Assembly: GCA_945869965.1 (NCBI GenBank)
Contig: CAMBRC010000010.1
Location: forward strand, 1-64,000
Source: Asaia bogorensis
GTDB taxonomy: Bacteria > Pseudomonadota > Alphaproteobacteria > Acetobacterales > Acetobacteraceae
Reading direction: 5' to 3'
DNA: 64,000 nt
Positions 810 to 27,041 of the stretch are shown here, one piece after another. Both the position numbers and the translations under genes were made by a program. The notes beneath the pieces are model-generated. The model saw only the letters and a list, made by a program, of their open reading frames with translations. It was not told where the DNA came from and searched no databases. Numbering within the stretch: position 1 is the first letter of the stretch; each line of letters starts with the position of its first letter.

Positions 810-1892
810 TCACATTCCCCCGCGGGGCGTTGTGCGCAGAAACTCCGCGAGTTCGCGCGTGTAGAACTTCGCCATCCCTGTGGTGCCGTGCCCGCGCGTC
901 TCTGTGCTTGGGGGGATCAGGTGATAGCGCGCGCCTGGAACACGCTTCAGTGCGGCGTCCATCAGCCCGGTTTCGGGCGGATTGCGCTCGTCATCGGCGG
1001 CATTCACCACCAGCAGCGCGGCCTTTATCCGCGCCAGCGCTGGCGACGGGTCGTAGTCGCGCGAGGACTCCCATTGATACAGGTAGTCATTGGCATCGGC
1101 GGTGAAGGGAGCGGCCAGACGGGTATCCAGAAGCTGGTCCGCGGTGGCGCGGGTCGGTGCTTGTTTCTGATAGGCCAGGGTGCCGCCATTGGTGGCGATG
1201 CCATAGAAGGCCGCCGCGATCTGGATCGCCTTGGGCTGCGTGGCATAGTCGCCACCCTTCCAGTCGGGGTCGTTGCGTATGGCGTCGATCATCATGCGGC
1301 GCATCATCCAGTTGCGGCTGGACATCTCGGTCGGTTGCGATGCCATTGGCACCAGCGTGTCCATCATGTCCGGGTAGCTGGTGCCCCAGATCCAGGCGTG
1401 CATGCCGCCCATGGAGTTCCCGATCACCAGCCGCAGCCGCTTGATGCCCAGCCCCTCGGTGACCAGGCGGTATTGGGCCAGCACCATGTCATCGTAGTTG
1501 TAGCGCGGGAATTTTGTTCGCAGGCCGTCGGAGGGCTTGGACGATCGCCCGGCGCCAAGCGCATCGGGGATGATGATGAAGTGCTTGGTTGCGTCCAATG
1601 GCTGACCAGGTCCGAACAATTCGCCCGCGAAGGCTGGTGTCAGCATGTTCGCCGCCGCGCCGGCGGTGCCGTGCAGGACCAGGACGGGGATGCCGGTGGG
1701 TTCGCCGATTGTGGTGTAGGCCAGTTTCATTGCGGGCATCGTTTCACCGGTGTGGAAACGAAAGTCGCGGGCTTCCCACATGCCCTGTCGGGGTGCGGGG
1801 TATTCGGCCGCCTGGGCGGCATCGAGGGAAACCATGGCAGCCATCAAGCCTCCCAGCAACACGGTGCGACGCAGCAGACTCGAATGCTTCAT
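810..1892 (-). CDS. secreted alpha/beta hydrolase, homoserine acetyltransferase-like fold
   Basis: The protein has 360 residues from ATG 1892. An N-terminal signal peptide (basic MKHSSLLRR, hydrophobic core, cleavage near AQAAEYP) suggests export to the periplasm. The mature part is an alpha/beta hydrolase of the MetX-like group: the nucleophile Ser sits in GNSMGGMHAW, an Asp in NAADDERNPPE and a His in TRGHGTTG complete a plausible triad. True homoserine acetyltransferases are cytoplasmic and lack a signal peptide, so this is more likely a secreted esterase-like enzyme of unknown substrate. An in-frame extension to 2054 would overlap gltB and is rejected. It lies 83 bases downstream of gltB on the same strand. 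Confidence 0.85.
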   Translation of the reverse strand: MKHSSLLRRTVLLGGLMAAMVSLDAAQAAEYPAPRQGMWEARDFRFHTGETMPAMKLAYTTIGEPTGIPVLVLHGTAGAAANMLTPAFAGELFGPGQPLDATKHFIIIPDALGAGRSSKPSDGLRTKFPRYNYDDMVLAQYRLVTEGLGIKRLRLVIGNSMGGMHAWIWGTSYPDMMDTLVPMASQPTEMSSRNWMMRRMMIDAIRNDPDWKGGDYATQPKAIQIAAAFYGIATNGGTLAYQKQAPTRATADQLLDTRLAAPFTADANDYLYQWESSRDYDPSPALARIKAALLVVNAADDERNPPETGLMDAALKRVPGARYHLIPPSTETRGHGTTGMAKFYTRELAEFLRTTPRGGM

Positions 1893-1975
1893 GGTCCGTC
1901 TTCCCCGGTTGTCGTCATTGGTCACATCCAAGCGGGCAGCCAAGCCCATGCGGCCGGCTGTTGCAACCGGCCGGG

Positions 1976-4900
1976 TCAGGCGCGCAATGCCGCCACCGGC
2001 TCTCCGAGCGGCTGGTCGAGGTAGCGGACGTACTCCTTCGGGACCACCTGCCAAAACCGTGGCAGCACCCGGTCCCAGTCATGCAGCAGGCGGGTGGCAT
2101 AACTGCTGTTGGTTTCGCGGGCATGTATGGCGACGAGGTCGTTCAAGACCGCGGACCAGTGCGGGGTGGCGAGGCGTTGCCAGGTCAGGGTTTCGGGGTT
2201 CACGCGCAGGCTGAACATGTCGTCGGGGTCGTAGACGAAGGCCATGCCGCCGGTGAAGCCGGCGCCGAAATTGTCGCCGATGGGGCCGAGGATGGCGACG
2301 GTGCCGCCGGTCATGTACTCGCAGGCATTGGAGCCGGTGCCCTCGACCACGGCCGTGGCACCGGAGTTGCGCACGGCGAAGCGCTCACCGGCCTGGCCGG
2401 CGGCGTAAAGGCTGCCGGCGGTGGCGCCGTAAAGCACGGTGTTGCCGATGATGGTGTTGAGGTGGCTCTGGAGTGTGGAGGAGGGGGCGGGGCGGACGAC
2501 GATGGTGGCGCCGGAGAGGCCCTTGCCGACGTAGTCATTGGCGTCGCCGAAGACTTCGAGCTTCACGCCCTGGACGGCGAAGGCGCCGAGGGACTGGCCG
2601 GCCGAGCCGCGCAGGCGGACGGTGATGTGGTTGGGCTGAAGGCCCGTCATGCCGAACTGGCGGGTGATCTTGCTGCTCAGCTTGGTGCCGATGGCGCGCT
2701 GGGTGTTTCGGATATTGTATTCCAGCTGCATTTTTTCGCCATGGGCGAACAGGGCGCTGGCGTCGGCGATCATCTGGGCGTCGAGGGTTTCGGGAACTTC
2801 GTTGCGGCCCTCCAGCGTGCAGTAGCGGGCGTACGGGCCGGGGTCGGCCTGGACCAGCAGGGGGTTGAGGTCGAGGTCGTCCAGCATTTCGGAACCGCGG
2901 CTGACCTGGTGCAGCAGGTCGGTGCGGCCGATCACTTCGGCCAGGGTACGGAAGCCGAGGCTGGCGAGGATCTGGCGGACGTCGTCGGCGATGAAGCTGA
3001 AGAGGTTGATGACTTTCTCCGGGGTGCCTTCGAACTTGGCGCGGAGTTTTTCGTCCTGGGAGCAGACACCGACCGGGCAGGTGTTGGAGTGGCACTGGCG
3101 GACCATGATGCAGCCCATGGCGACCAGGCTGGCGGTGCCGATGCCGAATTCCTCGGCGCCGAGCATGGCGGCGATGACGACGTCGCGGCCGGTCTTGATG
3201 CCGCCATCGGTGCGCAGCTTTATCTTGTGGCGCAGGCGGTTGAGCATCAGCACTTGGTGGGTTTCGGACAGGCCCACCTCCCAGGGCAGGCCGGCGTATT
3301 TCACCGAGGTTTGCGGGCTGGCGCCGGTGCCGCCGGAGTGGCCGGAGATGAGGATGGCGTCGGCCTTTGCCTTGGCCACGCCGGCAGCGATGGTGCCGAT
3401 GCCGGAGCGCGCGACAAGCTTCACGCAGACGGTGGCTTCGGGGTTAATCTGCTTAAGGTCGTAGATGAGCTGGGCGAGGTCCTCGATGGAGTAGATGTCG
3501 TGATGCGGCGGCGGGGAGATGAGCATCACGCCGGGGGTGGAGTGCCGCAGCTTGGCGATCAGGCTGGTGACCTTGAAGCCGGGGAGCTGACCGCCCTCGC
3601 CGGGCTTGGCGCCCTGGGCGATCTTGATCTCGATCTCGCGGCAGTTGTTGAGGTATTCGGCGGTGACGCCGAAGCGGCCCGATGCAACTTGCTTGATGGC
3701 CGAGTTGGCGTTGTCGCCGTTGGCGCGCGGCTTGGCGCGGGCGGGGTCTTCGCCGCCTTCGCCGGAATCGCTTCGTGCGCCGATGCGGTTCATGGCGATC
3801 GAGAGGGTTTCATGGGCTTCCGGCGAGAGCGCACCGAGAGAGATGCCAGGTGCGAGCAGGCGCTTGCGGATTTCGGTGATGCTTTCGACCTCCTCGACCG
3901 GGATTGCCTTGCCGGCCTGGTCGCGGAAGTCGAGCAGGTCGCGCAGGGCGACCGGGGGCATGCGGCGGACGGCTTCGGCGTATCGCCGGTATAGCTGGAA
4001 GCTGTCGGTGGCGACGGCTTCCTGGAGCATGTGGATCAGGGGGCCGTCGAAGGCGTGGGCCTCGCCGCGCTGGCGCAGCTTGTAGATGCCGCCGACCGGC
4101 AGGGCCGCCATCTCGGCGTCCCAGGCGGCTTCGTGCAGTGCGAGGATCTTGCGGGCGATGCCGGACAGGCCGATGCCGGAGATGCGGCTTTGCATGCCGG
4201 GGAAGAATTCGCCGACCAACTGGCGGGACAGGCCGATGGCCTCGAAGTTGTAGCCGCCGCGATAGGAGGAGATGACCGAGATGCCCATCTTGGACATCAC
4301 CTTCAACAAGCCCTTGTCGACGGCTTTCTTGAAGCGTTGCACGGCTTCCTTGAGCGAGATGGTGCCGAACAGGCCGCGCCGGTGGCGGTCGGCGATGCCT
4401 TCCTGGGCGAGGTAGGCGTTGATCGTGGTGGCGCCGACACCGATCAGCACGGCGAAGGTATGGACGTCCAGGCACTCGGCGGCGCGGACGTTGAGGCTGG
4501 TGAAGGTGCGCAGCGAGGAGTGCACGAGATGGGTGTGCACGCCGCCGGTAGCCAGGATCATCGGGATGGCGACGCGCGCGGCGGAGGTCGCCTCGTCGGT
4601 CAGGATGACGTGGGTGCAGCCGGCGCGCACGCCTTCCTCGGCTTCGCGGCGAATGCGTTCCAGGGCAGCACGCAGGCCCGACTCGCCCTCGGCGGACGGG
4701 AAGGTGCAGTCGACGATGCAGGCGTGGGTGCCCATGGTTTCGCGCATGGCGGCGAATTCAGCGGTGGAGAGAACTGGCGATTCCAGCTGCAACAGATCAA
4801 ATTGACTGCTGTCCTCGTCCATGACGTTGCCGAGGTTGCCAAGCCGGGTTTTCAGCGTCATCACCCGGGTTTCGCGCAGGCTGTCGATCGGCGGATTGGT

Positions 4901-6529
4901 GACCTGGGAAAAGCCCTGGCGGAAATAGTGGTGCAGGCCGCGGTATTTCTCGGACAGCACGGCGAGCGGCGTGTCGTCGCCCATGCTGCCGATGGCTTCC
5001 TGGCCGTCCTCCACCATGGGGTGAAGGATCATTTCGAGTTCTTCCAGCGTGGTGCCGACCGAGAGTTGGCGGCGGCGCAGTTCCTCGCGGTCGAAGAGCA
5101 CGGGCTCTGGCGCATCGGTTTTGACGATGTGGTCAATCTGACGGATGCGCTTGGCCCACTCGCCAAAAGGCTGGCGGGCCGCGAGCATGTCCTTCATCGC
5201 CTCATCGCCGTAGAAGGTGGCGGTATCGAGGTCGACGCCGATCGACTGGCCGGGGCCAACGCGGCCCTTTTCGACGATCTCGCTCTCGTCCAGCTTCACC
5301 ATGCCGGCCTCGCTGCCGACGATCAGCAGGGCGTTGCGGGCGATGGTGTAGCGCAGCGGGCGCAGGCCGTTGCGGTCGAGCCCGGCGATCACCCAGCGGC
5401 CATCGGTGGCGGCCAGGGCGGCCGGGCCGTCCCAGGGCTCCATCACCGAGTTGCAGTACAGGAACATGTCCCGGTACGCCTGTTTCATCGTGGCGTCGTT
5501 GCCGATGCTGGCCGGGATCATCAGCGCCTTGGCCATCGGCGCATCGCGGCCGGCGCGCAGCAGTACCTCGAAGACGTTGTCCAGGGTTGCGGTGTCGGAG
5601 CCGGCGGCCTGGATGACTGGCTTGATGTCGTCCATGAAGCGGTCCAGCGCCGGGCTGGACAGGCGGGTCTCGTGGCTCTTCATCCAGTTGACGTTGCCCG
5701 ACAGCGTGTTGATTTCGCCGTTGTGGGCGAGGGCACGGAACGGCTGGGCGAGACGCCAGGTGGGGAAGGTGTTGGTCGAATAGCGCTGGTGGTAGATGGC
5801 GAAGCGGCTGACGAAGCGCTCATCCTGCAGGTCGGGGTAGAATTCCGACAGGCTCTCGGCCAGGAACATGCCCTTGTAGATGATCGAGCGGCAGGACAGG
5901 GAGCAGAAGTAGAGCTCCTGAATCTGTGCGGCGATTGCCTGTTTCTCGATGCGGCGGCGGATGACGTAGAGGTCGCGTTCGAACTCGCCGATGTCGGCGG
6001 CCGCGCCGGCGGGTGACCAGATCATGATCTGTTCGATTTCGGGCCGTGTTGCGTTGGCCTTCTCGCCGATGCAGCCGGTGTCGATCGGCACTTGGCGCCA
6101 GCCATAGATGTGGTAGCCGAAGGCGATGATCTCGGATTCGACGATCTGCCGGCAACGTTCCTGGGCGCCGAGGTCGGTCTTCGGCAGGAACACCTGGCCG
6201 ACCGCGATTGGCCCGGGGCGCAGCCGGTCGCCGCCGCGGCGCACGGCATCGGCGAAGAAGTCCTGCGGGATTTCGATATGGATGCCCGCACCGTCGCCGG
6301 TCTTGCCGTCGGCGTCGACCGCGCCGCGATGCCAGACCGCCTTCAGCGCATCGATACCGGCCTGGACCACATCGCGCCGGGCCCGGCCGTCCAGTGCCGC
6401 CACCAGCCCCACGCCGCAGGCATCGTGCTCCTGCGCGGCAGAGTAGGTGCCGGCCAGGCGTGCTGCGTTTTCGTGCCATTCCCGCACGAAAACGTGACCG
6501 GAAACGGCCGGTTCGGCGGGCTGGGACAT
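1976..6529 (-). CDS. gltB: glutamate synthase (NADPH) large subunit
   Basis: The enzyme transfers the amide of glutamine to 2-oxoglutarate to make two glutamates, working with GltD and with glutamine synthetase in ammonium assimilation. The 1517-residue length is normal. Residues 1-37 are a short propeptide; Cys38 in EHDACGVGLVA is the expected N-terminal nucleophile of the class II glutaminase domain. The central and FMN-binding synthase domains follow, with GGTGASPQTS and the 3Fe-4S cluster cysteines in CHSNTCPVGVC near residue 1145, and a C-terminal GXGXG beta-helix domain rich in glycine. The start has AGGAG eight bases upstream. It is last of the group gltD-DUF2059-DUF2059-gltB, which is an unusual split of the gltBD pair. 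Confidence 0.97.
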   Translation of the reverse strand: MSQPAEPAVSGHVFVREWHENAARLAGTYSAAQEHDACGVGLVAALDGRARRDVVQAGIDALKAVWHRGAVDADGKTGDGAGIHIEIPQDFFADAVRRGGDRLRPGPIAVGQVFLPKTDLGAQERCRQIVESEIIAFGYHIYGWRQVPIDTGCIGEKANATRPEIEQIMIWSPAGAAADIGEFERDLYVIRRRIEKQAIAAQIQELYFCSLSCRSIIYKGMFLAESLSEFYPDLQDERFVSRFAIYHQRYSTNTFPTWRLAQPFRALAHNGEINTLSGNVNWMKSHETRLSSPALDRFMDDIKPVIQAAGSDTATLDNVFEVLLRAGRDAPMAKALMIPASIGNDATMKQAYRDMFLYCNSVMEPWDGPAALAATDGRWVIAGLDRNGLRPLRYTIARNALLIVGSEAGMVKLDESEIVEKGRVGPGQSIGVDLDTATFYGDEAMKDMLAARQPFGEWAKRIRQIDHIVKTDAPEPVLFDREELRRRQLSVGTTLEELEMILHPMVEDGQEAIGSMGDDTPLAVLSEKYRGLHHYFRQGFSQVTNPPIDSLRETRVMTLKTRLGNLGNVMDEDSSQFDLLQLESPVLSTAEFAAMRETMGTHACIVDCTFPSAEGESGLRAALERIRREAEEGVRAGCTHVILTDEATSAARVAIPMILATGGVHTHLVHSSLRTFTSLNVRAAECLDVHTFAVLIGVGATTINAYLAQEGIADRHRRGLFGTISLKEAVQRFKKAVDKGLLKVMSKMGISVISSYRGGYNFEAIGLSRQLVGEFFPGMQSRISGIGLSGIARKILALHEAAWDAEMAALPVGGIYKLRQRGEAHAFDGPLIHMLQEAVATDSFQLYRRYAEAVRRMPPVALRDLLDFRDQAGKAIPVEEVESITEIRKRLLAPGISLGALSPEAHETLSIAMNRIGARSDSGEGGEDPARAKPRANGDNANSAIKQVASGRFGVTAEYLNNCREIEIKIAQGAKPGEGGQLPGFKVTSLIAKLRHSTPGVMLISPPPHHDIYSIEDLAQLIYDLKQINPEATVCVKLVARSGIGTIAAGVAKAKADAILISGHSGGTGASPQTSVKYAGLPWEVGLSETHQVLMLNRLRHKIKLRTDGGIKTGRDVVIAAMLGAEEFGIGTASLVAMGCIMVRQCHSNTCPVGVCSQDEKLRAKFEGTPEKVINLFSFIADDVRQILASLGFRTLAEVIGRTDLLHQVSRGSEMLDDLDLNPLLVQADPGPYARYCTLEGRNEVPETLDAQMIADASALFAHGEKMQLEYNIRNTQRAIGTKLSSKITRQFGMTGLQPNHITVRLRGSAGQSLGAFAVQGVKLEVFGDANDYVGKGLSGATIVVRPAPSSTLQSHLNTIIGNTVLYGATAGSLYAAGQAGERFAVRNSGATAVVEGTGSNACEYMTGGTVAILGPIGDNFGAGFTGGMAFVYDPDDMFSLRVNPETLTWQRLATPHWSAVLNDLVAIHARETNSSYATRLLHDWDRVLPRFWQVVPKEYVRYLDQPLGEPVAALRA

Positions 6530-6572
6530 AGGAGGGCTCCTGGGCTTTAGTCGGCAGGCATCGGCGCGTGCC

Positions 6573-7148
6573 TTACGGGACGAACTTCAACCCGCGCTTG
6601 GTGAATTCGTCGGCGTGCTTTGCCTGCGAGGCAGTGTAGACCTTCTGCGCCCAGGTCTGGCCGGCCTGGTTGATGACGTTGTTGAGCTGCGGAATGGAGC
6701 GCAGCAGCTTGTCGCCCAGCGGGGTGTTGTAGAACGTGCGCAGGTTCCGCAGCTCCTCGGCGGTGAAGGCGCCGGCCCAGGCTTCGACGATCGTGGCGTG
6801 CAGTGTGCCGGCGTCACCGACGAAATCCGGCATCAGCAGGTCGTCGACCACGCCGATCATGTCCTGCGGAGTCTTGCCGTTGGCCTGGGCAATGTTGACG
6901 ATGATGGCGGTGCGCAGGGTGTTGATGATGCCGCGCACCTGGGCTTCCCAGCCGAGCTTTTCGCCGAGTGCGCGGGCCTCGCGCCGGCTGGCCTCGCTGA
7001 CCACCGGGGCGGGCTGAGCAGGTGCTGCACTCGGGGCCGGGGCGGGCGCGGGTGCCGTTACGGGAGGGTTCTGAGCATATGCGGTGCCGGCAGTCAGAAG
7101 GCCCGCCAGAAGCATGGCGCCGGCGATCGGCCGATAGGTGGTTTTCAT
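6573..7148 (-). CDS. DUF2059 secreted protein, copy 1
   Basis: This 191-residue protein has a clear signal peptide ending near AYAQNPP, followed by an Ala/Pro-rich linker up to about residue 50 and then a helical DUF2059 domain. The domain ends in a stretch resembling RTFYNTPLGDKLL, typical of this family, and the C-terminus reads KRGLKFVP. It is a paralogue of the next upstream gene: both share the TPLG-KLLR core and the terminal HADE-RGLKF segment. Function of the family is unknown; location is predicted periplasmic. It lies 12 bases downstream of copy 2 and 43 bases upstream of gltB, so it is very likely in the glutamate synthase operon. Confidence 0.85.
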   Translation of the reverse strand: MKTTYRPIAGAMLLAGLLTAGTAYAQNPPVTAPAPAPAPSAAPAQPAPVVSEASRREARALGEKLGWEAQVRGIINTLRTAIIVNIAQANGKTPQDMIGVVDDLLMPDFVGDAGTLHATIVEAWAGAFTAEELRNLRTFYNTPLGDKLLRSIPQLNNVINQAGQTWAQKVYTASQAKHADEFTKRGLKFVP

Positions 7149-7160
7149 GTCAACGCCCCT

Positions 7161-7664
7161 TTAGAATTTCAAACCCCGGGCACGCAGCTCATCCGCGTGG
7201 CGGTCAACCGAATCCTGGAACACTCGCTGTCCCCACGCCAGCCCCGCCTGTTCACCCTGTGCGCGCGCAATCGGCTGGGTGCGCAGCAGCTTCTGGCCCA
7301 GCGGCGTGATGAAGAAGGCGCGCAGGGCCTTGAGATCGGAGATGGTAAAGTTCAGCGCATAAGGTTCGATCATCTCCGACACCAGTTCGGCGCCGCGGGC
7401 GCGGAAGTTGGGCATCAGGATGTCGTCGACAATGGCTGCGGCCTCGGCCTCGGGCATCTCGGCGGCGAGCATGGTCGCCTCGATGATCTCCGCCCGCATC
7501 CGTGCCAGCAACGCCTCGGTCTGACGCGGGATGTCCAGCATTTCGGCCAGGGCGCGCGCCTCGCGACGGTTTTCATCCAGCGCTGACGTGGTGCCGCGGG
7601 TGCTTTGGGCCATCGCGGCACCGGCCACGGCGGCGGCAATGAGAAAGGCGAGGAAGCTGCGCAT
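7161..7664 (-). CDS. DUF2059 secreted protein, copy 2
   Basis: This 167-residue protein starts with a signal peptide (MRSFLAFLIAAAVAGAAMAQ). The mature part is a DUF2059 domain with FFITPLGQKLLRTQP and a C-terminal HADELRARGLKF, matching copy 1 closely enough to call them tandem paralogues. The start codon lies one base after the gltD stop, so translation is probably coupled to gltD. No catalytic residues are recognisable. Why two periplasmic proteins are embedded between the subunit genes of a cytoplasmic enzyme is not known. Confidence 0.85.
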   Translation of the reverse strand: MRSFLAFLIAAAVAGAAMAQSTRGTTSALDENRREARALAEMLDIPRQTEALLARMRAEIIEATMLAAEMPEAEAAAIVDDILMPNFRARGAELVSEMIEPYALNFTISDLKALRAFFITPLGQKLLRTQPIARAQGEQAGLAWGQRVFQDSVDRHADELRARGLKF

Positions 7665-7665
7665 C

Positions 7666-9093
7666 TCAGGCCGCTACCTTGCTGGATTGCTGGATATGGG
7701 TGTGCATCGCGGCCGCCGCATCCCGGCCGTCGCGGATCGCCCACACCACCAGCGAGGCGCCGCGCACGATGTCGCCGGCAGCATACACCCCCGGCAGGCT
7801 GGTCATGAAGCTGTGCCGGTCAATCGTCAGGGTACCTTGCCGGGAAACCTTGAGCGCGGGCTCGCCAAAGGCGCCAGGCAGGTCCTCGGGGTCGAAACCC
7901 AGCGCCTTGATCACCAGGTCGGCCGGGACAGAGAAGGCGCTGCCGGCAATCGGTTCCACGGTCTGGCGGCCCGCGGCGTCGGGCTGGCCGAGATGCATGC
8001 GAAGGGCGCGCACGCCGGTGACGCTTGTGTCGCCGAGGAAGGCTTCGGGGGCGGCGAGCCATTGGAACTGCACGCCTTCTTCCTCGGCATTCTTCACTTC
8101 ACGCAACGAACCCGGCATGTTGGCGCGGTCGCGGCGATACAGGCAGGTGACCGAGGCGGCACCCTGGCGCACCGCGGTGCGGACGCAATCCATCGCCGTG
8201 TCGCCGCCGCCGACCACCACGACCCGTTTGCCGTGGGCGTCCAGCTTGCCATTGCTGAAGTCGGCCACGGTATCGCCGAGCCCCGCGCGGTTCGAGGCGG
8301 TGAGGTAGTCGAGTGCGGCGACGACGCCCGGCAGCCCGGCGCCGGGACCGCCGATGTCGCGCGGACGGTAGACGCCGGTGGCGATCAGCACGGCGTCATG
8401 GCGCGCGCGCAGATCCTGGAAGGTGATGTCCTGGCCGATGCCGCAGTTGAGGTGGAACTGGACGCCGCCGTCCTCCAGCAGTTTCCAGCGGCGCACGACG
8501 ACCGGCTTTTCCAGCTTGAAGCCGGGAATGCCATAGATCATCAGGCCACCGGCGCGGTCGTAGCGGTCGTAGACATGGACCTGGTAGCCGTGTTTTCGGA
8601 GTTGCTCCGCCGCCGCGAGGCCGCCAGGGCCGGCGCCGATGATGCCGACCGATTCCCGGCGTTCCCGGCGCGGCTTGATCGGCCTGACCCACCCCTGTTC
8701 AAAGGCATTGTCGGTGATGAAGCGTTCGACCGCGCCGATGGTCACGCTGTCGAAGCCTTTTTCGATCACGCAATTGCCCTCGCACAGGCGGTCCTGGGGG
8801 CAGATGCGGCCGCAAATTTCCGGGAAATTGTTGGTGGCAGCGCTGATCTCGTATGCCTCGTCCAGCCGGCCTTCGGCCGCGAGCTTGAGCCAGTCGGGGA
8901 TGTTGTTGGCGAGCGGGCAATGCGCCTGACAGAACGGAACGCCGCACTGGCTGCATCGGCTGGCTTGGATGGCGGCCTGGCTGGGAGCGTATTCGGCGTA
9001 GATTTCCTCGAAGTCCTGCCGGCGCAGCTCGGCGTTCCGCTTTGGCGGCGTCTGTTGGGCAACGGAGACGAACTGCAGCATGCGGTCGGGCAT
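7666..9093 (-). CDS. gltD: glutamate synthase small subunit
   Basis: The subunit takes electrons from NADPH through FAD and iron-sulfur clusters to GltB. The 475-residue length is typical. The N-terminal cluster cysteines are Cys47, Cys50, Cys55 and Cys59 (CSQCGVPFCQAHCP) with a second set in CGRICPQDRLCEGNC. The FAD-binding GAGPGGLAAAEQL and the NADPH-binding VVVGGGDTAMD follow, and the C-terminal ATG-type motif YAAGDIVRGASLV closes the FAD site. It is the first gene of the operon, with a candidate promoter about 130 bases upstream, and its stop is separated from the next start by one base. Confidence 0.97.
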   Translation of the reverse strand: MPDRMLQFVSVAQQTPPKRNAELRRQDFEEIYAEYAPSQAAIQASRCSQCGVPFCQAHCPLANNIPDWLKLAAEGRLDEAYEISAATNNFPEICGRICPQDRLCEGNCVIEKGFDSVTIGAVERFITDNAFEQGWVRPIKPRRERRESVGIIGAGPGGLAAAEQLRKHGYQVHVYDRYDRAGGLMIYGIPGFKLEKPVVVRRWKLLEDGGVQFHLNCGIGQDITFQDLRARHDAVLIATGVYRPRDIGGPGAGLPGVVAALDYLTASNRAGLGDTVADFSNGKLDAHGKRVVVVGGGDTAMDCVRTAVRQGAASVTCLYRRDRANMPGSLREVKNAEEEGVQFQWLAAPEAFLGDTSVTGVRALRMHLGQPDAAGRQTVEPIAGSAFSVPADLVIKALGFDPEDLPGAFGEPALKVSRQGTLTIDRHSFMTSLPGVYAAGDIVRGASLVVWAIRDGRDAAAAMHTHIQQSSKVAA

Positions 9094-9220
9094 CGGACAG
9101 CTCCGGACGGATCAAGGCATCGGCACCATACGCGATCCCCGTCAGCTTGGCGAGTCTTTTATGGCAGTTATGCTGCCTTTATTCAGTCGATTTGCGTTGC
9201 CCGACTCTTGAGAGCGCAAG

Positions 9221-9235
9221 TTTGATCAAATTATA
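9221..9235 (-). promoter_or_regulatory. candidate gltD promoter -10 with overlapping palindrome
   Basis: On the minus strand a perfect TATAAT hexamer (9230-9235) runs directly into the perfect 10-base palindrome TTTGATCAAA (9221-9230), which would sit at the transcription start. No good -35 box is visible 16-18 bases upstream, so an activator may be needed. The start of gltD is about 130 bases downstream. The assignment rests only on motif match. Confidence 0.4.
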
Positions 9236-9265
9236 GTGCCGATATGGTTCTATTCGATGGATCGC

Positions 9266-10219
9266 TCAGGCCGGTCGCAGCACGCCAGACCGGTAGCGCG
9301 CAAGGTAGCCTGGAACCACCTGCTCCACCGCCAGCGGGGTGATGCCGAGTTCTGCCAGGCCGGCCGCCCCCGCTGCGACGACGTTGTCGCGGCGCAGCAA
9401 CAGCAGTTGGTCGCGGGTCAGCGGCTTGCCCGGGATGAGCTCCATCAGGCGTGCCTGTAGCGTGGCCAACTTGTCCGGCATCATGAACATCGGCCGGCGA
9501 TGGCCTGACTGCGCCATGATCCAGGCAATCAGGTCGCGCATCGACCAGATTTTCGGCCCGCCGAGTTCGAAGGTCTTTCCCGTAGCGTCGGCGCGGGCGA
9601 GGCCGGCCATCACCGCATCGGCGACGTCGCCGACATGGACCGGCTGGAACCGCGTGTCCGGCGCGAAGACCGGCATCACCGGTAGGTACTGCGCCAACGC
9701 GGCAAACCGGTTGAAGAACGCGTCCTCGGCGCCGAACACCACCGAGGGGCGAAGGATGGTGGCGGCCGGGAATGCGGCGCGCACCGCGGCCTCGCCGGCC
9801 GCCTTGCTTTGGGCATAGAGGCTGGGGCTGGAGGCGTCGGCGCCGATGGCGGAGAGGTGAACCAGCCGTGCCACGCCGGCCGCGGCAGCGGCGCGCGCGA
9901 TGGTGGCGGCGCCCTGGTGATGGACGCGGTCGAAATCACCGGGACGGCGTTCGCTGAGGATGCCGACGAGGTTCACCACGCAATCGGCGCCTTCGATAGC
10001 GCGGGCAACGGCGGCGGCGTCGCTGACCGGGGCGTGCAGCGGCACAACCTGGCCGATGCTGCCCAGCGGCTTGAGTGCCAGCGCAAGTTCGGTGTCGCGC
10101 ACCGCGACGCGCACGGCATAGCCGGCCGCAACCAGGCGCTTGACCACATGGCGGCCGATGAAACCGGTGCCGCCGAACACCGTGGCGATGCCGTGTCCCA
10201 GCCCAACTCGGTCGTTCAT
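9266..10219 (-). CDS. NAD-dependent epimerase/NDUFA9-like complex I accessory protein
   Basis: The 317-residue protein from ATG 10219 is an atypical short-chain dehydrogenase. The Rossmann motif is TVFGGTGFIGRHVVKRL near the N-terminus. The usual YxxxK is represented by YAQSKAAGEAAVR. The general pattern (FGAEDAFFNRFA, PVHVGDVADAV, MRDLIAWI) is that of the NDUFA9/complex I accessory family found in Alphaproteobacteria, which binds NADPH without known catalysis. A role in complex I assembly is inference from family. The long open frame upstream to 10840 runs through the tRNA gene and is not coding. Confidence 0.85.
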   Translation of the reverse strand: MNDRVGLGHGIATVFGGTGFIGRHVVKRLVAAGYAVRVAVRDTELALALKPLGSIGQVVPLHAPVSDAAAVARAIEGADCVVNLVGILSERRPGDFDRVHHQGAATIARAAAAAGVARLVHLSAIGADASSPSLYAQSKAAGEAAVRAAFPAATILRPSVVFGAEDAFFNRFAALAQYLPVMPVFAPDTRFQPVHVGDVADAVMAGLARADATGKTFELGGPKIWSMRDLIAWIMAQSGHRRPMFMMPDKLATLQARLMELIPGKPLTRDQLLLLRRDNVVAAGAAGLAELGITPLAVEQVVPGYLARYRSGVLRPA

Positions 10220-10330
10220 GGTGTGCTCCCGTGCGTGTCGGCCCTTGATATGGCGCCTGGGCCGCCGGCTCAAGCATGCGCCGCCGGTGGCATGGCGAAC
10301 AGAAATCTTGGTGCGCGGAAAGCTGGGCAG

Positions 10331-10359
10331 TTGACGCCGGGGCGGGTGGGGGTTACATC
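10331..10359 (+). promoter_or_regulatory. candidate tRNA-Leu promoter
   Basis: TTGACG at 10331-10336 is followed after exactly 17 bases by TACATC at 10354-10359. Transcription would start near 10366, about 38 bases before the mature tRNA. This is a good sigma-70 type match for a stable RNA gene. Confidence 0.5.
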
Positions 10360-10403
10360 GCCCGCCCACCGTCCGTCGCACACCGCGGACCGGTGCCGAA
10401 TGT

Positions 10404-10490
<87 letters not shown>

Positions 10491-10552
10491 CTCGGCGGGC
10501 GGCGATCGGTCCCGCCATGGGATTTTCCATGATGGCGGAGACCGTTCAGTTC

Positions 10553-11188
10553 ATGGCCAATGCCACCATCCATCTGCACCGGCACGACCTGCCGGAAGGC
10601 CTCGTCCTCGGCCCTGTGCTGGCGGTCGATACCGAGGCAATGGGACTCGATTCGCGGCGTGACCGGCTGTGCTTGGTGCAGATGTCGTCCGGCGACGGCG
10701 TGGTCCACCTGGTGCAGATCGTGCCGCCGGTGCTGGGCGGGCGTGGCGCGGATTGCCCGAACCTGAAGCGCGTGCTGGCCGATCCCGCCACCGTCAAGCT
10801 GATGCATTTCGCCCGCTTCGACGTCGGGCTGTTGCAGCACGCGCTAGGCATTCGCGTGGCGCCTGTGCGCTGCACCAAGATCGCCGCCAAGCTGGTGCGG
10901 ACCTATACCGACCGGCATGGGCTGAAGGATCTGTGCCGCGAGTTGCTCGGCGTGGACCTGTCCAAGCAGCAACAGACATCGGATTGGGGGGCGACGGAGC
11001 TGAGCGCCGAGCAGATGGCCTATGCCGCGTCGGATGTGCTGCACCTGCACGCCCTTTGGGCCAAGCTGGAGGGCCTGCTGGAGCGCGAGGGCCGGCGTGA
11101 GCTGGCGCAGGCATGCTTCGATTTCCTGCCGGCGCGCGGGCAACTGGACGTGCTGGGCTGGGACGCGCCGGATATTTTTGCGCACTGA
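10553..11188 (+). CDS. rnd: ribonuclease D
   Basis: This is a DEDDy-type 3'-5' exonuclease that trims tRNA and other RNA 3' ends. From ATG 10553 it has 211 residues, the short form found in Alphaproteobacteria that lacks the C-terminal HRDC domains of E. coli RNase D. Exo I is VDTEAMG (Asp26, Glu28), Exo II lies in HFARFDVGLL, and Exo III is YAASDVLHL. Alternative ATGs at 10517, 10529 and 10532 would add at most 12 residues without similarity to the family; GGAG at 10537-10540 favours 10553. It sits 62 bases downstream of a tRNA gene. Confidence 0.92.
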   Translation: MANATIHLHRHDLPEGLVLGPVLAVDTEAMGLDSRRDRLCLVQMSSGDGVVHLVQIVPPVLGGRGADCPNLKRVLADPATVKLMHFARFDVGLLQHALGIRVAPVRCTKIAAKLVRTYTDRHGLKDLCRELLGVDLSKQQQTSDWGATELSAEQMAYAASDVLHLHALWAKLEGLLEREGRRELAQACFDFLPARGQLDVLGWDAPDIFAH

Positions 11189-11211
11189 GATCTAGCCCGG
11201 TCGTGAAGGCA

Positions 11212-11264
11212 AGCAAGCCTCCGGCGGCAAAGGGCCGGGGGCCCTTTGCCGACGGAGGCTTGCT
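11212..11264. repeat. 25-bp inverted repeat between rnd and kdsD
   Basis: Left arm 11212-11236 and right arm 11240-11264 are complementary in 24 of 25 positions around a three-base GGG centre. The arms begin AGCAAGCCTCC, similar to the outer ends of family A repeats (AGCAAGGC). There is no following T-tract, so a simple rho-independent terminator is unlikely, although it could end the rnd transcript or stabilise its 3' end. Confidence 0.75.
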
Positions 11265-11400
11265 GGTTTACCCGATTTCCTTGCTTGCTTGACCGCGATG
11301 CGGCCGCCGCCGTAACTCCCTTCCCTCGACAAGATGCTGCGCGGCACCATGTTACTTTGTCGCTCCTCAGCGCTCCCCCATGGGCTGGAATGCACCGCCG

Positions 11401-12384
11401 ATGACTGCCGCCCTCGCGTCCCTGACGAGCGACCTCGATGTCGCTCGAGACGTGCTTGCCGCCGAGGCGGCCGGATTGCAGGCGCTTGCCGCCGGTCTGG
11501 ACGCGGGATTTGCCCGGGCGGTGGACCTGTTGGCGGCGGCCAGCGGGCGTATCGTGGTGTCCGGCATGGGCAAGTCTGGGCATGTGGCGCGCAAGATCGC
11601 CGCGACCTTGGCGTCCACCGGGGCGCCGGCGCTGTTCGTACATCCGGCTGAGGCGAGCCACGGCGATCTCGGCATGATCGTGCCGGGCGATGCCGTGCTG
11701 GCGCTGTCCAACTCCGGCGAGACGGCGGAGCTGGCCGACCTGGTGGCACATTCGCGGCGCTTTGGCCTGCCGCTGGTGGCGATCACGGCGCGGGCTGGCA
11801 GTGCGCTCGCGGCCGCCGCCGATGTCGCCTTGTTGCTGCCGGCGGCGCGCGAGGCCTGCCCGATGGGGCTGGCGCCGACCACCTCGACCACCATGCAGAT
11901 GGCGCTGGGCGACGCGCTGGCGGTGGCGCTGCTGACGCGGCGCGGCTTTGGAGCGGCGGATTTCCGCCAGTTCCATCCCGGCGGGAAGCTGGGTGCGCGG
12001 TTGCGGCGGGTGCGCGAGCTCATGCATGGCGGCGATGCTCTGCCGCTGGCCGGGCCCGACACGGTGATGGATGCGGCATTGGTGCTGATGACCGGCAAGC
12101 GCTTTGGCTGCCTGGGCGTGGTGGACAGCGAGGGGCGCCTGTGCGGCATCTTCACCGATGGCGATCTGCGGCGTTCCATGGGGTCGAATCTGTTGGCGCG
12201 CCGTCTGGGCGAGGTGATGAACGCGGCGCCCCGCACCATCGGGCCAGAGACGCTGGCGGCCGAGGCGCTGCATCTGATGAATGACCCCATGCGCCCGATT
12301 ACCGCGTTGTTTGTGGTGGATGGGCAGCAGCGTCCACTGGGGATCCTGCATATTCACGACCTTTTGCGGGCGGGAGCGGCCTAG
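11401..12384 (+). CDS. kdsD: arabinose-5-phosphate isomerase
   Basis: The enzyme interconverts D-ribulose 5-phosphate and D-arabinose 5-phosphate, the first step towards Kdo for lipopolysaccharide. Of 327 residues, about 35-170 form the SIS sugar-isomerase domain (VVSGMGKSG, LSNSGETAEL, PTTSTTMQMALGDALA) and about 200-327 hold two CBS domains (FGCLGVVDSEGRLCGIFTDGD). The start at 11401 matches the family's N-terminus; an in-frame ATG at 11380 would add seven residues. It begins the kdsD-lptC-lptA-lptB-rpoN-hpf run, which fits its role in envelope biogenesis. Confidence 0.94.
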   Translation: MTAALASLTSDLDVARDVLAAEAAGLQALAAGLDAGFARAVDLLAAASGRIVVSGMGKSGHVARKIAATLASTGAPALFVHPAEASHGDLGMIVPGDAVLALSNSGETAELADLVAHSRRFGLPLVAITARAGSALAAAADVALLLPAAREACPMGLAPTTSTTMQMALGDALAVALLTRRGFGAADFRQFHPGGKLGARLRRVRELMHGGDALPLAGPDTVMDAALVLMTGKRFGCLGVVDSEGRLCGIFTDGDLRRSMGSNLLARRLGEVMNAAPRTIGPETLAAEALHLMNDPMRPITALFVVDGQQRPLGILHIHDLLRAGAA

Positions 12385-17233: not shown

Positions 17234-18463
17234 CTACCGCCCCATGTCGCGCAAAAAATCGAGCTGCCACCGCATCTCATCAACCGCCAGCGGAAACCCG
17301 CCGCTGGGCGTTGGCCGCAAGATGGTCGACGGATTGAGCCGCGCCAGCAGCGTCTGCAACGGCCCGGCGACATTCATCGTGAACCCCGCCTTCCACACCA
17401 GGCTGATCAGCCCCTTGGCGCTGCGCAGCGTCGCCGCGCGATCGACCACGGAGGCGGGCAGCTCGGCCGCCAGGGCCAGGATCGCGGTCGCCATGCGCGG
17501 TTCGCCACGCTGGATTGCCGCCAGCAGCGCCGCCTCGTCCAACTGATGCTCCGACAGCAACTGCTGTGCCTCGATCATCGCCTGGTCGATATCCGGATCG
17601 TGCCGGGTGCGCGCAGGTGGCGGGTTCAACCGCAGCTCAAGCCGCTGCCGCAACTCCCGCGCGGTCGCCAAGGGTAGGTCGGCGCGCCCGGCGAGCACAT
17701 CGAGCAGTTGCGTGGCGACATAGTCGGACAAAGCGCGGGCGGCGCGCTCGGACAGCTTCGGATGGCTCACCAGCGGCTTGTGCCATGCCTCGTGCGGCGC
17801 CCCCGCCATCGCCAGCATGTCCAGCGTCGACTCGCGGATCGCCGCGGTACTGTTGGACAACAGCGCGGTGATGGCACGCACATTGCTGGTCGCCGCCACC
17901 GCGTCGGCGACGTCCTCGGCAAGGCAGGGCCGGGCCGCGATCGACACCGCCACTTCGGCCGCCGGCGCACTGGCCAACAATGCCAGAAGGTCCTCCGAGC
18001 CCAGCAACGGCGACAATCGCACCACCGGGTCGAACACCGTCGTCGCCACATCGCGCGCCAGCTGCATGATGATGCTGCGTGGCGCCTGTGGCATGTCCTT
18101 GAGCACGTCGGCGATCGCCTCGCGCACGCGCACAGCCTCGTCGCTGACCAGCCGGTTCAGCGTGCCCAGCGCCCGCTCGCGTAACGCGGCGCGATCTGCC
18201 ACGCCGAGGTTGGGCACCAGGTTTGCCAGTTTGCGCGCCAACAGCGTGCGCACCCGCTCGTCACGGTCCTGTGCCAGCACCAGGTCGGTGTCGCCGGCGG
18301 CGGCCAGGTTCATCGCCACGGCGGCGCGCACCGTCACCGCGGGGTCGCTGGCCAGTGACCGCAGAACATGCGGCGCGGTGTCCGGTGCCGCGCCCAGACG
18401 CACCCGGGCGGCTTCCGTCGTGTCTTCGGCCGGCGCCAGCAGGGCGGTGTCATCGCGTGGCAT
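17234..18463 (-). CDS. DUF2336 domain protein
   Basis: This 409-residue, mostly helical, Ala/Leu-rich protein matches the DUF2336 family, which is found in Alphaproteobacteria and looks like HEAT-type helical repeats (for example VRAAVAMNLAAAGDTDLVLAQDRDERVRTLLARKLA). No catalytic motif is seen. ATG 18463 overlaps the stop of the diguanylate cyclase (ATGA), which is why this start was chosen over one ten codons upstream. Co-translation with a c-di-GMP synthase hints at a signalling role, but the function is not known. Confidence 0.85.
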   Translation of the reverse strand: MPRDDTALLAPAEDTTEAARVRLGAAPDTAPHVLRSLASDPAVTVRAAVAMNLAAAGDTDLVLAQDRDERVRTLLARKLANLVPNLGVADRAALRERALGTLNRLVSDEAVRVREAIADVLKDMPQAPRSIIMQLARDVATTVFDPVVRLSPLLGSEDLLALLASAPAAEVAVSIAARPCLAEDVADAVAATSNVRAITALLSNSTAAIRESTLDMLAMAGAPHEAWHKPLVSHPKLSERAARALSDYVATQLLDVLAGRADLPLATARELRQRLELRLNPPPARTRHDPDIDQAMIEAQQLLSEHQLDEAALLAAIQRGEPRMATAILALAAELPASVVDRAATLRSAKGLISLVWKAGFTMNVAGPLQTLLARLNPSTILRPTPSGGFPLAVDEMRWQLDFLRDMGR

Positions 18464-22625: not shown

Positions 22626-23195
22626 TTGACCGACGTCTCCATCGGCCCGTGGATGGGCCTGCGCGCGGCGCTACTGCTGGCCCGTGGCCGCCCCGAAGGC
22701 GCGTTCCTGATCAGCATCGAGCCCCCCGAGGCACAGCTGTCGCGGGCGCGCCACAGCTTCCTGGCCTTGCTGTTGTGCGTGCCGGTCTTCCTGCTGATCC
22801 AAAGCCTGGGCCAGGACCAGGGCAAGGCTGCCGCCGGCATCACCATCCTGCGCGACTCCGCCAGCTTCGTCCTGGCCTGGCTCGGCTATGCCGTGCTGTC
22901 GCACCGTCTGGCCGCGACGATGGACCGGGCCGAGCTGTGGCCACTCTTTGTCGTGCTGTGGAACTGGTGCAACCTCGTCCAGTACCTGCTGATGGCCTGC
23001 GCCATGGCACCCACCCTGCTCGGCGCGCCGGCCATCGTCGGACAGACCGCCTGGGTGGTGGCCATTGGCTGGTCGGTATGGCTGCAATGGTCGGCCACCC
23101 GTATCGGCCTCGGCCTGTCTGCCGGGCGCGCGGCACTCCTGGTGGTCGCCGACATGGCGCTGGGCATCGCGGTGCTTCGCCTCACCGCGGGCTGA
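22626..23195 (+). CDS. uncharacterised membrane protein, tandem copy 2
   Basis: This is a 189-residue integral membrane protein with about five hydrophobic segments and a TTG start at 22626, six bases after copy 1. The motifs LWNWCNLVQYLL and GLGLSAGRAALLVV align with FNWSQWAVP and [14 protein letters not shown] of copy 1. The N-terminus carries GRPEGAFLISIEPPEAQLSRARHSF, which precedes the first helix. Its last 14 bases overlap the end of the convergent truA gene. Function unknown. Confidence 0.7.
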   Translation: MTDVSIGPWMGLRAALLLARGRPEGAFLISIEPPEAQLSRARHSFLALLLCVPVFLLIQSLGQDQGKAAAGITILRDSASFVLAWLGYAVLSHRLAATMDRAELWPLFVVLWNWCNLVQYLLMACAMAPTLLGAPAIVGQTAWVVAIGWSVWLQWSATRIGLGLSAGRAALLVVADMALGIAVLRLTAG

Positions 23196-23946
23196 ACGGA
23201 TCCTCGGGATAGCGCACGGCCATCAACATCAGCCCGTCGGACGGCGCGGTCGGCCCGGCGGCCGCACGGTCACGCGCCACCAGCGCCAGCCCCACCCGCT
23301 CCGCCGGCCAGGTCCCTTCGCCCACCAGCTTCAGCGTGCCCACGATGTTGCGAACCATGTGATGCAGAAAGCTGCGGGCGGCCACGTCAATCACCACCAT
23401 CTCGCCCTCCCTTCGAACCTCCAATTGGTCGATCGTTCGCACGGGCGATTTCGCCTGGCACGAGGTGGCGCGAAACGAGGTGAAATCATGCCGCCCCAGC
23501 AGCGCCTCCGCCCCGCGCGCCATCGCCGCGTCATCCAGCTCCTGCGGCACATGCCACATTCGCCCGGCCTCCAGCGCCGCGCGCGCCCGCCGGTTTAGAA
23601 TGCGATAGCGATACTCCCGCCCGATCGCCGAAAACCGCGGATTCCACCCCGCCGGCGCCAGCACCGCCCGCAACACCGCCACCGCATGCGGCTTCATGTG
23701 GTAGTTCAACGCATCGCGCAGCTTGTCGCCGGAAATCGTCCGCTCCAGGTCGATACTGGCCACCTGCCCGCTGGCATGCACCCCGGAATCGGTCCGCCCG
23801 GCAGTGATGCTGGCCACCGGCGCCCCGCCCACCAACCGCGCCGCCGCCGCCTCCAACACCTGCTGCACCGACACCCCGCTCGCCTGGCGCTGCCAGCCGA
23901 AAAACCCGGCGCCGTGATACTCCAGTAACAGCGCATAACGCGGCAT
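23182..23946 (-). CDS. truA: tRNA pseudouridine(38-40) synthase
   Basis: TruA converts uridines 38, 39 and 40 of the tRNA anticodon arm to pseudouridine. The 254-residue protein has the catalytic Asp53 in GRTDSGVHA, with LLLEYHGAGFFGWQRQ at the start and FLHHMVRNIVGTL in the second half. ATG 23946 overlaps the fmt stop. It is the last gene of def-fmt-truA. Confidence 0.96.
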   Translation of the reverse strand: MPRYALLLEYHGAGFFGWQRQASGVSVQQVLEAAAARLVGGAPVASITAGRTDSGVHASGQVASIDLERTISGDKLRDALNYHMKPHAVAVLRAVLAPAGWNPRFSAIGREYRYRILNRRARAALEAGRMWHVPQELDDAAMARGAEALLGRHDFTSFRATSCQAKSPVRTIDQLEVRREGEMVVIDVAARSFLHHMVRNIVGTLKLVGEGTWPAERVGLALVARDRAAAGPTAPSDGLMLMAVRYPEDPFSPR

Positions 23947-24854
23947 CAGCCGAGCACCGTCCCCACCGGCACCCGCCGCCCGCGCAGGAACGCCCCGGCC
24001 GCCATGGCGCCCCGCCCCGGCGCCTGCACCCGCATCAGCCGCAGCGCACCCTGCCCACAGGCAACCAGCAGCCCTTCATCCAACACCGTCCCCGGCGCGC
24101 CATCCCCCGCTTCCGGCACCGCCGCCAGCACCTTCAGCACCTCGCCATCCAGCGTGGCAAAAGTCCCCGGCCAAGGGTTCAGCGCCCGCACCCGCCGGTC
24201 CAGCGCAGCAGCATCCAGCCGCCAGTCGATCCGCCCGTCCTCGCGCGTCAGCTTCGCCGCATAGCTCGCACCCTCTTCCGGCTGCGCCACCGGGGCAGGG
24301 GAGGCATCAAGCACCGCCAGCACCAGCCGCGCCCCCATCGCCGCCAGCGCATCATGCAATTCACTCGCCGTCGTGGTCGCGGTGACAGACACCGAATCGC
24401 ACGCCAGCATCGCCCCGGTATCGAGCCCGGCATCCATCTGCATGATGGTGATCCCGGTCCGCGCATCCCCCGCCAGCAACGCCGCCTGGATCGGCGCCGC
24501 CCCGCGCCAGCGCGGCAACAGGCTGGCATGGATGTTCAGGCACCCGCGCTTCGGCGCATCCAGCATCGCCTGCGGCAAGATCAACCCGTACGCCGCCACC
24601 ACCGCCACATCCAGCCCAAGTGCCGCAAATTCCGCCTGCGCCGCCTCGTCCTTCCGCAGCCGCACCGGTGTGCGCACCTCCAGCCCCATCGTCTCGGCGG
24701 CAACCTGCACCGGACACCGCCGCACCGCCTGCCCGCGCCCGGCCGGCCGCGCCGGCTGGCAGTACACCGCCGCGATCTCATGCCCCGCGTCATGCAGCGC
24801 CCGCAGCGCCGGCACCGCGAAATCCGGGCTGCCCATGAACGCCAGCCGCGCCAC
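23946..24854 (-). CDS. fmt: methionyl-tRNA formyltransferase
   Basis: Fmt formylates initiator Met-tRNA using 10-formyl-tetrahydrofolate. The 302-residue protein has the catalytic region [17 protein letters not shown] and the Asp in [13 protein letters not shown], then the C-terminal OB-fold domain (about 205-302) with ALNPWPGTF. The start is GTG at 24854, two bases after the def stop. The partner Def removes the formyl group, so the operon links both ends of the formyl cycle. Confidence 0.96.
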
Positions 24855-24856
24855 AA

Positions 24857-25402
24857 TCAGCGCTCCTTGTTCTTCTGTTCCTTGGCCAGCTTGCGCATGA
24901 TCATGTTGCGCTTCAGCGCCGAGATGTGATCGACAAACAACACCCCGTCCAGATGATCCAGCTCATGCTGCAAACACGCAGCCAACAGCCCGTCGCCTTG
25001 GATCTCGCGCCGCGCCCCCTCAAGGTCGAAATACCGCACCTTCACCTGCGCCGGACGGATCACATCGGCGAACATGTTCGGCAGCGACAAACACCCCTCC
25101 TCGCGCGTCGCCACCTCCTTGCTGGCCGCCACGATCTCCGGATTGACCAGCACATGCGGCGTCCGCTTGTCGCCCGGCGCCAGGTCGACGATCGCCACCC
25201 GCAACGCCACCCCAACCTGCGGCGCCGCCAGCCCGATCCCCGGCGCATGGTACATCGCCGCGAACATGCGCGGCACCAACGCGCGCACCGCATCATTGTC
25301 GCCGGCCGCAACCGCGCGGCAGCGTAGCTTCAGGGTGGCGTGTGGCGCGATCAGGATCGGCAACAGCATGGCGGCGGCGGCCGGCGGGGTTTCGTCGTTC
25401 AT
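24857..25402 (-). CDS. def: peptide deformylase
   Basis: Def removes the N-formyl group from new proteins. From ATG 25402 it has 181 residues. The three family motifs are GIGLAAPQ (about 55-62), EEGCLSLP with the metal-binding Cys, and QHELDHLDG with the two metal-binding His and the catalytic Glu. The open frame extends upstream to 25561 but this overlaps the divergent Hsp20 region. It heads the def-fmt-truA group. Confidence 0.95.
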
Positions 25403-25450
25403 CGCAGGGATGTAGCGGTGCGGCCCGCCGCGATCAACGCCGATGACCCT

Positions 25451-25480
25451 CTTGCAACCCAGCCGGGACCCGCCAAATAT
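25451..25480 (+). promoter_or_regulatory. possible heat-shock (sigma-32 type) promoter for Hsp20
   Basis: CTTGCAA at 25451-25457 and CCAAATAT at 25473-25480 are spaced 18 bases apart after CTTG. The first box resembles the RpoH -35 (CTTGAAA). The second departs from the alphaproteobacterial -10. The Hsp20 GTG lies about 60 bases downstream. This is a weak motif-only call. Confidence 0.25.
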
Positions 25481-25541
25481 GCTGGCGACGGGTTGCCATA
25501 ACGGGACCCGCCGCCCGCTTCGCTCGCATGAGGAGGCCTTC

Positions 25542-25997
25542 GTGACCACCCGCGTTTTCACATCCCCACTGTTCCTCGGCTTCGACCACCTCGAGCAGAT
25601 GCTCGAACGCGCGTCGAAAACCTCCTCCGAGGGCTATCCGCCCTACAACATCGAACAGACCGGCCCGACCGGCCTGCGCATCTCCCTGGCGGTGGCCGGC
25701 TTCACCATGGACGACCTGCAAATCACCCAGGAAGACAACCAGCTGGTGATCCGCGGCCGCCAGACCGACGACAGCCAGGGCCGGGTGTTCCTGCATCGCG
25801 GCATCGCCGCCCGGCAGTTCCAGCGCGCCTTCGTCATGGCCGAAGGCATCGAGGTCACCGGCGCCTGGCTCGACAACGGCCTGCTGCACATCGACCTCGC
25901 CCGCCCACAACCCGAAACGCGGGTGAAAACTATCAGCATCGGCAAGCGGGCAGCCACCGGCGCCGCCGTGCCAATGGTGGACGGCTCCGCCGAATAG
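25542..25997 (+). CDS. small heat shock protein Hsp20 (IbpA type)
   Basis: An ATP-independent holdase that keeps unfolded proteins soluble. The 151-residue product has the IbpA-like N-terminus FTSPLFLGFDHLEQML, the alpha-crystallin domain from about 35 to 125 (YPPYNIEQTG, LAVAGFTMDDLQI, FLHRGIAARQFQRAF) and a short C-terminal tail. GTG 25542 has GAGGAGG eight bases upstream; the in-frame extension to 25443 has no ribosome binding site. DUF1150 follows, the standard alphaproteobacterial pairing. Confidence 0.92.
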   Translation: MTTRVFTSPLFLGFDHLEQMLERASKTSSEGYPPYNIEQTGPTGLRISLAVAGFTMDDLQITQEDNQLVIRGRQTDDSQGRVFLHRGIAARQFQRAFVMAEGIEVTGAWLDNGLLHIDLARPQPETRVKTISIGKRAATGAAVPMVDGSAE

Positions 25998-26034
25998 CCG
26001 GCAACACTTCATCGGCTCAACCAGGAGACACGTC

Positions 26035-26277: not shown

Positions 26278-26358
26278 AGCAGGCTGGCAGCCACCGATCG
26301 CTTGACAGGCGGGGGCACCCAGCACCGAATAACGCCGTACAGCGAAGAAAGACCGGCG

Positions 26359-26754: not shown

Positions 26755-26780
26755 TGGCCATACGCGCGAAGGGTCAGAAA

Positions 26781-27014: not shown

Positions 27015-27041
27015 CCCTACCTGCACGAGCATGGAGCGGCG

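Follow-up and report, generated by a model that had tools for sequence, protein, structure and literature searches.

Two genes encoding proteins of the DUF2059 family lie between gltD and gltB, the genes for the small and large subunits of glutamate synthase, in the stretch of Asaia bogorensis DNA analysed here (64,000 nucleotides in all, hereafter the window). As far as our searches reach, gltD-DUF2059-gltB is a real, conserved and apparently unreported neighbourhood of a known family: no report of DUF2059 between gltD and gltB was found in the open-access literature. The reading that we favour, and consider probable, is that the two proteins (p1 and p2) would be Sec-exported, all-helical envelope proteins that are independent of canonical glutamate synthase and whose genes sit in an old gltD-gltB slot, most likely on the same message as their neighbours. 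At sequence level, this reading builds on the order and spacing of the genes, their family membership and signal-like starts, the purifying selection acting on them and the occurrence of DUF2059 at the old site without canonical gltD and gltB (gltDB).

The gltD-p2-p1-gltB locus

All of the genes concerned are on the minus strand. gltD (7666..9093; TIGR01318, 526.6 bits for a cut-off of 482.95) is followed by p2 (7161..7664, 167 aa; PF09832, E 2e-13), which starts 1 base past the gltD stop, by p1 (6573..7148, 191 aa; PF09832, E 4.5e-12), which starts 12 bases past the p2 stop, and by gltB (1976..6529; PRK11750, 1701.9 bits for a cut-off of 1047), which starts 43 bases past the p1 stop. The sequence-only reading had described two DUF2059 genes between gltD and gltB, the successive genes being separated by 1, 12 and 43 bases, and rechecked coordinates bear it out, as do the PF09832 scores of the two intervening proteins (46.2 and 50.6 bits, cut-off 23.6). 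Both subunits being above cut-off, GltB and GltD constitute an NADPH glutamate synthase by the TIGR01318 and PRK11750 family models. p1 and p2 are 40% identical across 136-138 residues, and are the only DUF2059 genes found in the genome to which the window belongs (a draft, 97% complete). The same genome encodes a second, distant glutamate synthase outside the window (contig C40, ~22926-28983), with GltD-like and GltB-like proteins of 40% and 44% identity, respectively. Directly upstream of gltD is a short-chain dehydrogenase (SDR) gene of the NAD-dependent epimerase/dehydratase family (9266..10219; PF01370, E 1.5e-18). This gene is a constant neighbour of the glt locus: it is directly upstream of gltD in 60 of the 67 named loci with enough upstream sequence (80 loci, among the matches listed).

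That gltD comes first and gltB last, the reverse of Escherichia coli, had also been noted. The observation is true, yet this order is ordinary, since gltD leads in all 71 measurable genomes of the family (Acetobacteraceae). It also does so in Azospirillum brasilense Sp7, and on a Paracoccus plasmid gltB is preceded by a gene for an NAD(P)-dependent oxidoreductase that is presumably gltD. The ordinary gltD-gltB operon of the family thus shares gene order and upstream SDR gene with the window, but there is usually no gene between the two subunits where here there are two.

It is from spacing that we infer co-transcription of gltD, p2, p1 and gltB, which would be made from one transcript. The ATG of p2 one base past the gltD stop, together with AGGGG ahead of the p1 start and AGGAG ahead of the gltB start, makes coupled translation plausible: p2 translation would be started via coupling to the gltD stop, while p1 and gltB would each be started from their own purine-rich site. 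Promoter and terminator scans do not separate the genes: nothing promoter-like was found on their strand, and nothing terminator-like in the gaps between them. Promoter-like sites were at chance level in the scanned region (1 found, on the other strand, for 0.9 expected), and a weak terminator-like site (6509-6496) falls just inside gltB, in a region where 9 such sites were found for 5.7 expected. Sigma-54 sites, sought as a sign of nitrogen control, were as frequent in the window as expected (36 versus 36.2, with up to two mismatches). None at that threshold is in the gap preceding gltD, and the sole perfect match (17872-17887) falls inside a 419-codon ORF on the other strand. A scan of positions 1000-12000 for Rfam families found none except one tRNA.

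The p1 and p2 proteins and their family

Both proteins have signal-peptide-like starts, MKTTYRPIAGAMLLAGLLTAGTAYA/Q and MRSFLAFLIAAAVAGAAMA/Q, with cut sites read by eye from the sequence, and in p1 the signal is followed by a Pro/Ala-rich linker. The signal peptides claimed for both in the sequence-only reading are thus predicted here too, since p1 and p2 pass a simple home-made rule, and export to the periplasm may be inferred. By the same rule, a signal-like start was recognised in 30 of 32 glt-linked DUF2059 genes, and the other two are genes cut by contig ends; the contrast with 8/102 in the control is flattering because every start was tried in the test and the first start only in the control. 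An export signal has been reported for some DUF2059 members, and lies outside the Pfam definition of PF09832.

The structure model of p2 (pLDDT 90.7) is all helices. Its best fold matches are PA0856 of Pseudomonas aeruginosa and BPSL2520 (3oao, Z 10.0; 6f03, Z 9.8; 2x3o, Z 9.8), the next row being at Z 5.5; the model would thus share the helical fold of solved DUF2059 members. Matches at Z of 5.5 or less (phage GamS, MscS and others) were regarded as chance hits of a helical protein. PA0856 (3oao, 2x3o) and BPSL2520 (6f03) have in common with the window proteins both their sequence family and, as predicted for p2, an all-helical fold, and BPSL2520, whose structure is titled secreted antigen, also shares the exported character predicted here for p1 and p2. 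Unlike these solved members, p1 and p2 are encoded in tandem in a glutamate synthase operon, and p1 has the Pro/Ala-rich stretch.

An exported or envelope context of DUF2059 proteins is found in a table of the Xylella secretome (PMC10673610) and in a Burkholderia list in which one is given as putatively exported (PMC7549894). They also figure among uncharacterised proteins in gonococcal proteomics from work on MlaA (PMC6424457) and, in the case of PA0856, in the proteomics of irradiated P. aeruginosa (PMC7770229), and among listed root-related transcripts (PMC10719396). A plasmid DUF2059 gene was lower at 15 degrees (PMC11858219). In the relevant parts of these six sources, no function of DUF2059 is stated. 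Our guess would be that these proteins serve the envelope as structural components or in a chaperone-like way.

A precedent for a single gene of the family being found between metabolic enzyme genes on one strand is the rpiA-DUF2059-gor cluster of Sinorhizobium meliloti (L156, 3042-5985). It differs in its enzymes and in a DUF2059 protein that is 23.7% identical, over the matched part, to a glt-linked copy from another alphaproteobacterial family (L040). In another locus (L063), DUF2059 is likewise followed by a pyridine nucleotide-disulphide oxidoreductase gene.

Across the genus, Ka/Ks is 0.05-0.34 for p1 and 0.10-0.38 for p2 (5 genomes and 10 species pairs each, one p2 being cut by a contig end), the corresponding ranges being 0.07-0.17 (gltD, 6 pairs) and 0.05-0.15 (gltB, 10 pairs). 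By these values, both p1 and p2 are under purifying selection within the genus, which, together with the frequent position of DUF2059 just before gltB in the family (43 of 53 carriers), makes the arrangement more than a chance one.

Occurrence and age of the arrangement

The survey of glt neighbourhoods across the family that the sequence-only reading had called for was run on 240 genomes. Using a sensitive profile, DUF2059 was found in 53 of them, and canonical gltB in 214. In 43 carriers a copy is just before gltB, i.e. on the same strand and within 1,500 bases (one copy in 37 genomes, two in 6), with three of the gltB places coming from separate searches; in the other 10, DUF2059 is solely away from gltB. 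Two genomes (G471 and G513) hold a further copy elsewhere. An initial sample of 80 genomes (79 genera) gave a PF09832 match in 15, to which the sensitive profile adds only one (G078), away from gltB. In 12 of the 15, the window's genome included, DUF2059 is between gltD and gltB; in G052 it has gltB on one side and the contig end on the other, while G058 and G076 differ. In 59 of the 71 measurable genomes of this sample, the PF09832 search revealed no DUF2059 in the gltD-gltB gap. For this count the best canonical row of either gene was kept (74 genomes apiece), distant second copies and a partial gltB (G019) were dropped, and three of the 74 genomes have the two genes on different contigs. 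In an order-level sample, 11/120 genomes gave a DUF2059 match, which was glt-linked in all but one (G058).

Searching with the start of gltB produced at least 80 named loci. DUF2059 precedes gltB in 25 of 80, a set that includes one locus (L106) whose upstream sequence is too short to judge; it is double in 5 of the 25, among the matches listed, namely in four relatives of the window and in L135. The four nearest relatives of the window are metagenome assemblies, one of them from Lac Pavin by title, and two loci titled A. bogorensis (L068 and L072) fall in or beside its genus on a GltD+GltB tree. Carriers that by title are not metagenome assemblies include, among the matches listed, Acidisoma silvae, Pseudoroseomonas wenyumeiae, P. 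deserti and Acidicaldus organivorans. Absence from all close relatives, which the sequence-only reading had named as grounds for abandoning its proposal, is not what was found: the arrangement is present in 5/5 genomes of the genus and well beyond it. The gltD-p2-p1-gltB order is unbroken in four of these five, the fifth being cut by a contig end.

That the pair is a genus curiosity born of a recent local duplication would agree with its form in the window, which is seen solely in this genus (5/5 genomes, among the matches listed). We nevertheless regard this as highly improbable. In a DUF2059 tree, p1 joins the single copies of other genera (G052 and G076; support 99/97) and p2 stands apart; forcing p1 and p2 together was rejected (p-AU 0.008) and, in a second set of 43 rows, was rejected again (p-AU 0.002). 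Support for the p1 group was lower (80/92) in the second tree, from which rows of the first, many of them divergent, were dropped and to which ten were added. Since p1 and p2 are not nearest kin, the duplication predates the genus, and the trees point to different losses of the duplicated copies in different lineages. A separate tandem pair between gltD and gltB in another genome (G445; L135, 4800-5974), on a branch other than that of the window's pair, also speaks against a curiosity of one genus.

Beyond the family, PF09832 was matched in 43/289 genomes of a class sample. Glt genes were sought within 1.5 kb in 29 of the 42 other matching genomes (29 loci), and gltD-DUF2059-gltB was found in two loci of other families (L040 and L046). 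In loci without glt genes, the neighbours of DUF2059 (20 proteins from 13 of 27 loci, 13 of the 20 with a Pfam match) have no common theme. In old literature, an extra ORF is said to occur near gltD-gltB in Azospirillum. In A. brasilense Sp7, ~134 bases separate gltD from gltB and no match to p1 or p2 is found in the locus. On the GltD+GltB tree (90 rows, 32 of them carriers), presence of the trait requires 13 changes compared with a mean of 26.4 in shuffles, none of 500 being as low; the tree was made by a quick method with 9 extra rows picked by hand, and gain and loss are indistinguishable on it. Occurrence of the slot in outside families, together with absences nested among close carriers (L132 and L136), suggests that the slot is probably ancient and that the arrangement has been lost many times.

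The slot has other occupants. In G038 (L019, 1297-1485(-)), a tautomerase gene (PF01361, E 2e-15) is found between gltD and gltB in place of DUF2059. G049 (L018, 1664-2359) has a gltD-gltB gap of ~747 bases containing small ORFs with no Pfam match, and a genome of the same genus (G488) shows a weak DUF2059 match in this gap (E 3.8e-9). In G058, gltD and gltB overlap by an estimated few bases and DUF2059 (L022, 6515-6934) is found away from these genes, where it follows an ORF of 711 codons whose product by eye resembles a membrane protein; DUF2059 is likewise away from gltB in two genomes of the same genus (G492 and G550). Two further genomes (G046 and G061) have a gltB match with one in-frame TAA, which may either stem from the boundary of the match or mark a disrupted gene.

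These findings bear on whether the slot merely tolerates insertions, with weak selection on DUF2059 and a position that is uninformative on its use. Such a neutral passenger is unlikely in our opinion. It would account for the patchy presence (the 13 changes on the tree), for the tautomerase and unassigned ORFs found in the slot, and for Ka/Ks values of p1 and p2 (0.05-0.38) whose top exceeds that of gltD and gltB. These ratios are still well under 1, however, and DUF2059 has stayed intact in two genera after loss of the adjacent glt genes.

DUF2059 and glutamate synthase apart

Five draft genomes that carry DUF2059 (G076, G464, G505, G532 and G556; 91-100% complete) yielded no canonical gltD or gltB. 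Glutamate synthase in these genomes is of the distant second type and is encoded elsewhere (GltD 39-42%, GltB 46-49% identity; the G556 large subunit is split in two, with pieces 41 and 49% identical). In all five, DUF2059 is directly behind the SDR gene. G076 has a p1-type DUF2059 (an open frame of 183 codons) behind an SDR gene product 65% identical to that of the window, and its contig ends ~230 bases further on. Ahead of this DUF2059 gene is DGCDAAAQMHGFMQQVAGMAAAAE-stop, a retained gltD end of 24 codons that matches gltD tails, with 16/24 residues identical to L072, the best of 80 gltD tails, and a score equalled in 0/1000 shuffles. G499, of the same genus, retains canonical gltD-DUF2059-gltB. 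In the four remaining genomes, which belong to another genus, the SDR gene is followed after ~200 bases by DUF2059, and neither a gltD or gltB match in the surrounding 8-11 kb nor a gltD tail was detected. In the second tree, DUF2059 of all five falls with p1, with moderate support.

With DUF2059 at the old site without canonical gltDB, and most GltBD operons without DUF2059, each can occur alone. DUF2059 thus does not appear to need canonical GltBD, a statement that holds for the p1 type, to which all five copies belong. An accessory subunit or dedicated partner would be present wherever canonical GltBD is and would be lost with it; 59 of the 71 gaps are without DUF2059, only 53 of the 240 genomes carry it at all compared with 214 that have canonical gltB, and the five draft genomes keep it. 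The sequence-only reading had offered two explanations for the arrangement. A connection between periplasmic events and nitrogen status is unsupported, given these same 59 gaps and five genomes. The option that the small genes simply exploit the promoter fits best.

A nitrogen link could take the form of an envelope sensor or helper tracking glutamate synthase and, for example, tying glutamate supply to wall synthesis, in which case DUF2059 would serve nitrogen assimilation. The position of DUF2059 just before gltB in 43/53 carriers, the gene order shared with two other families and the tight spacing in the window (1, 12 and 43 bases) are all in its favour, and the distant second glutamate synthase kept by the five genomes would be compatible with a need for some such enzyme. 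It loses on presence, i.e. on the measurable glt operons that do without DUF2059, to which Azospirillum Sp7 can be added, and on natural separation, i.e. on the five genomes without canonical gltDB and on five more in which DUF2059 is solely elsewhere. We therefore consider it improbable, somewhat more so than a neutral passenger. The linkage to gltB (43/53, plus two other families) nonetheless persists more than that of a random passenger would, which counts against the reading that we favour, as does the unbroken order in the four genomes of the genus in which it can be followed.

According to that reading, the small gene probably travels with the operon as a passenger, without being part of the enzyme, and the advantage of the slot for DUF2059 would be steady, growth-linked expression. 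Less probable than either of the two alternatives just weighed is an ancestral operon design, shared by some of the Alphaproteobacteria, that couples production of an envelope protein to glutamate synthesis, p1 and p2 having split the job and the p1 type having kept its part where another glutamate synthase took over. If this were true, envelope building would follow nitrogen supply.

DUF2059 is recurrent across bacteria and often exported-looking, and its glt neighbourhood, present in roughly one in five of the family's sampled genomes (43/240) with either partner naturally absent in some, provides a comparative handle on it. The natural separation of the two partners is a warning against inferring a role in nitrogen metabolism from operon membership.
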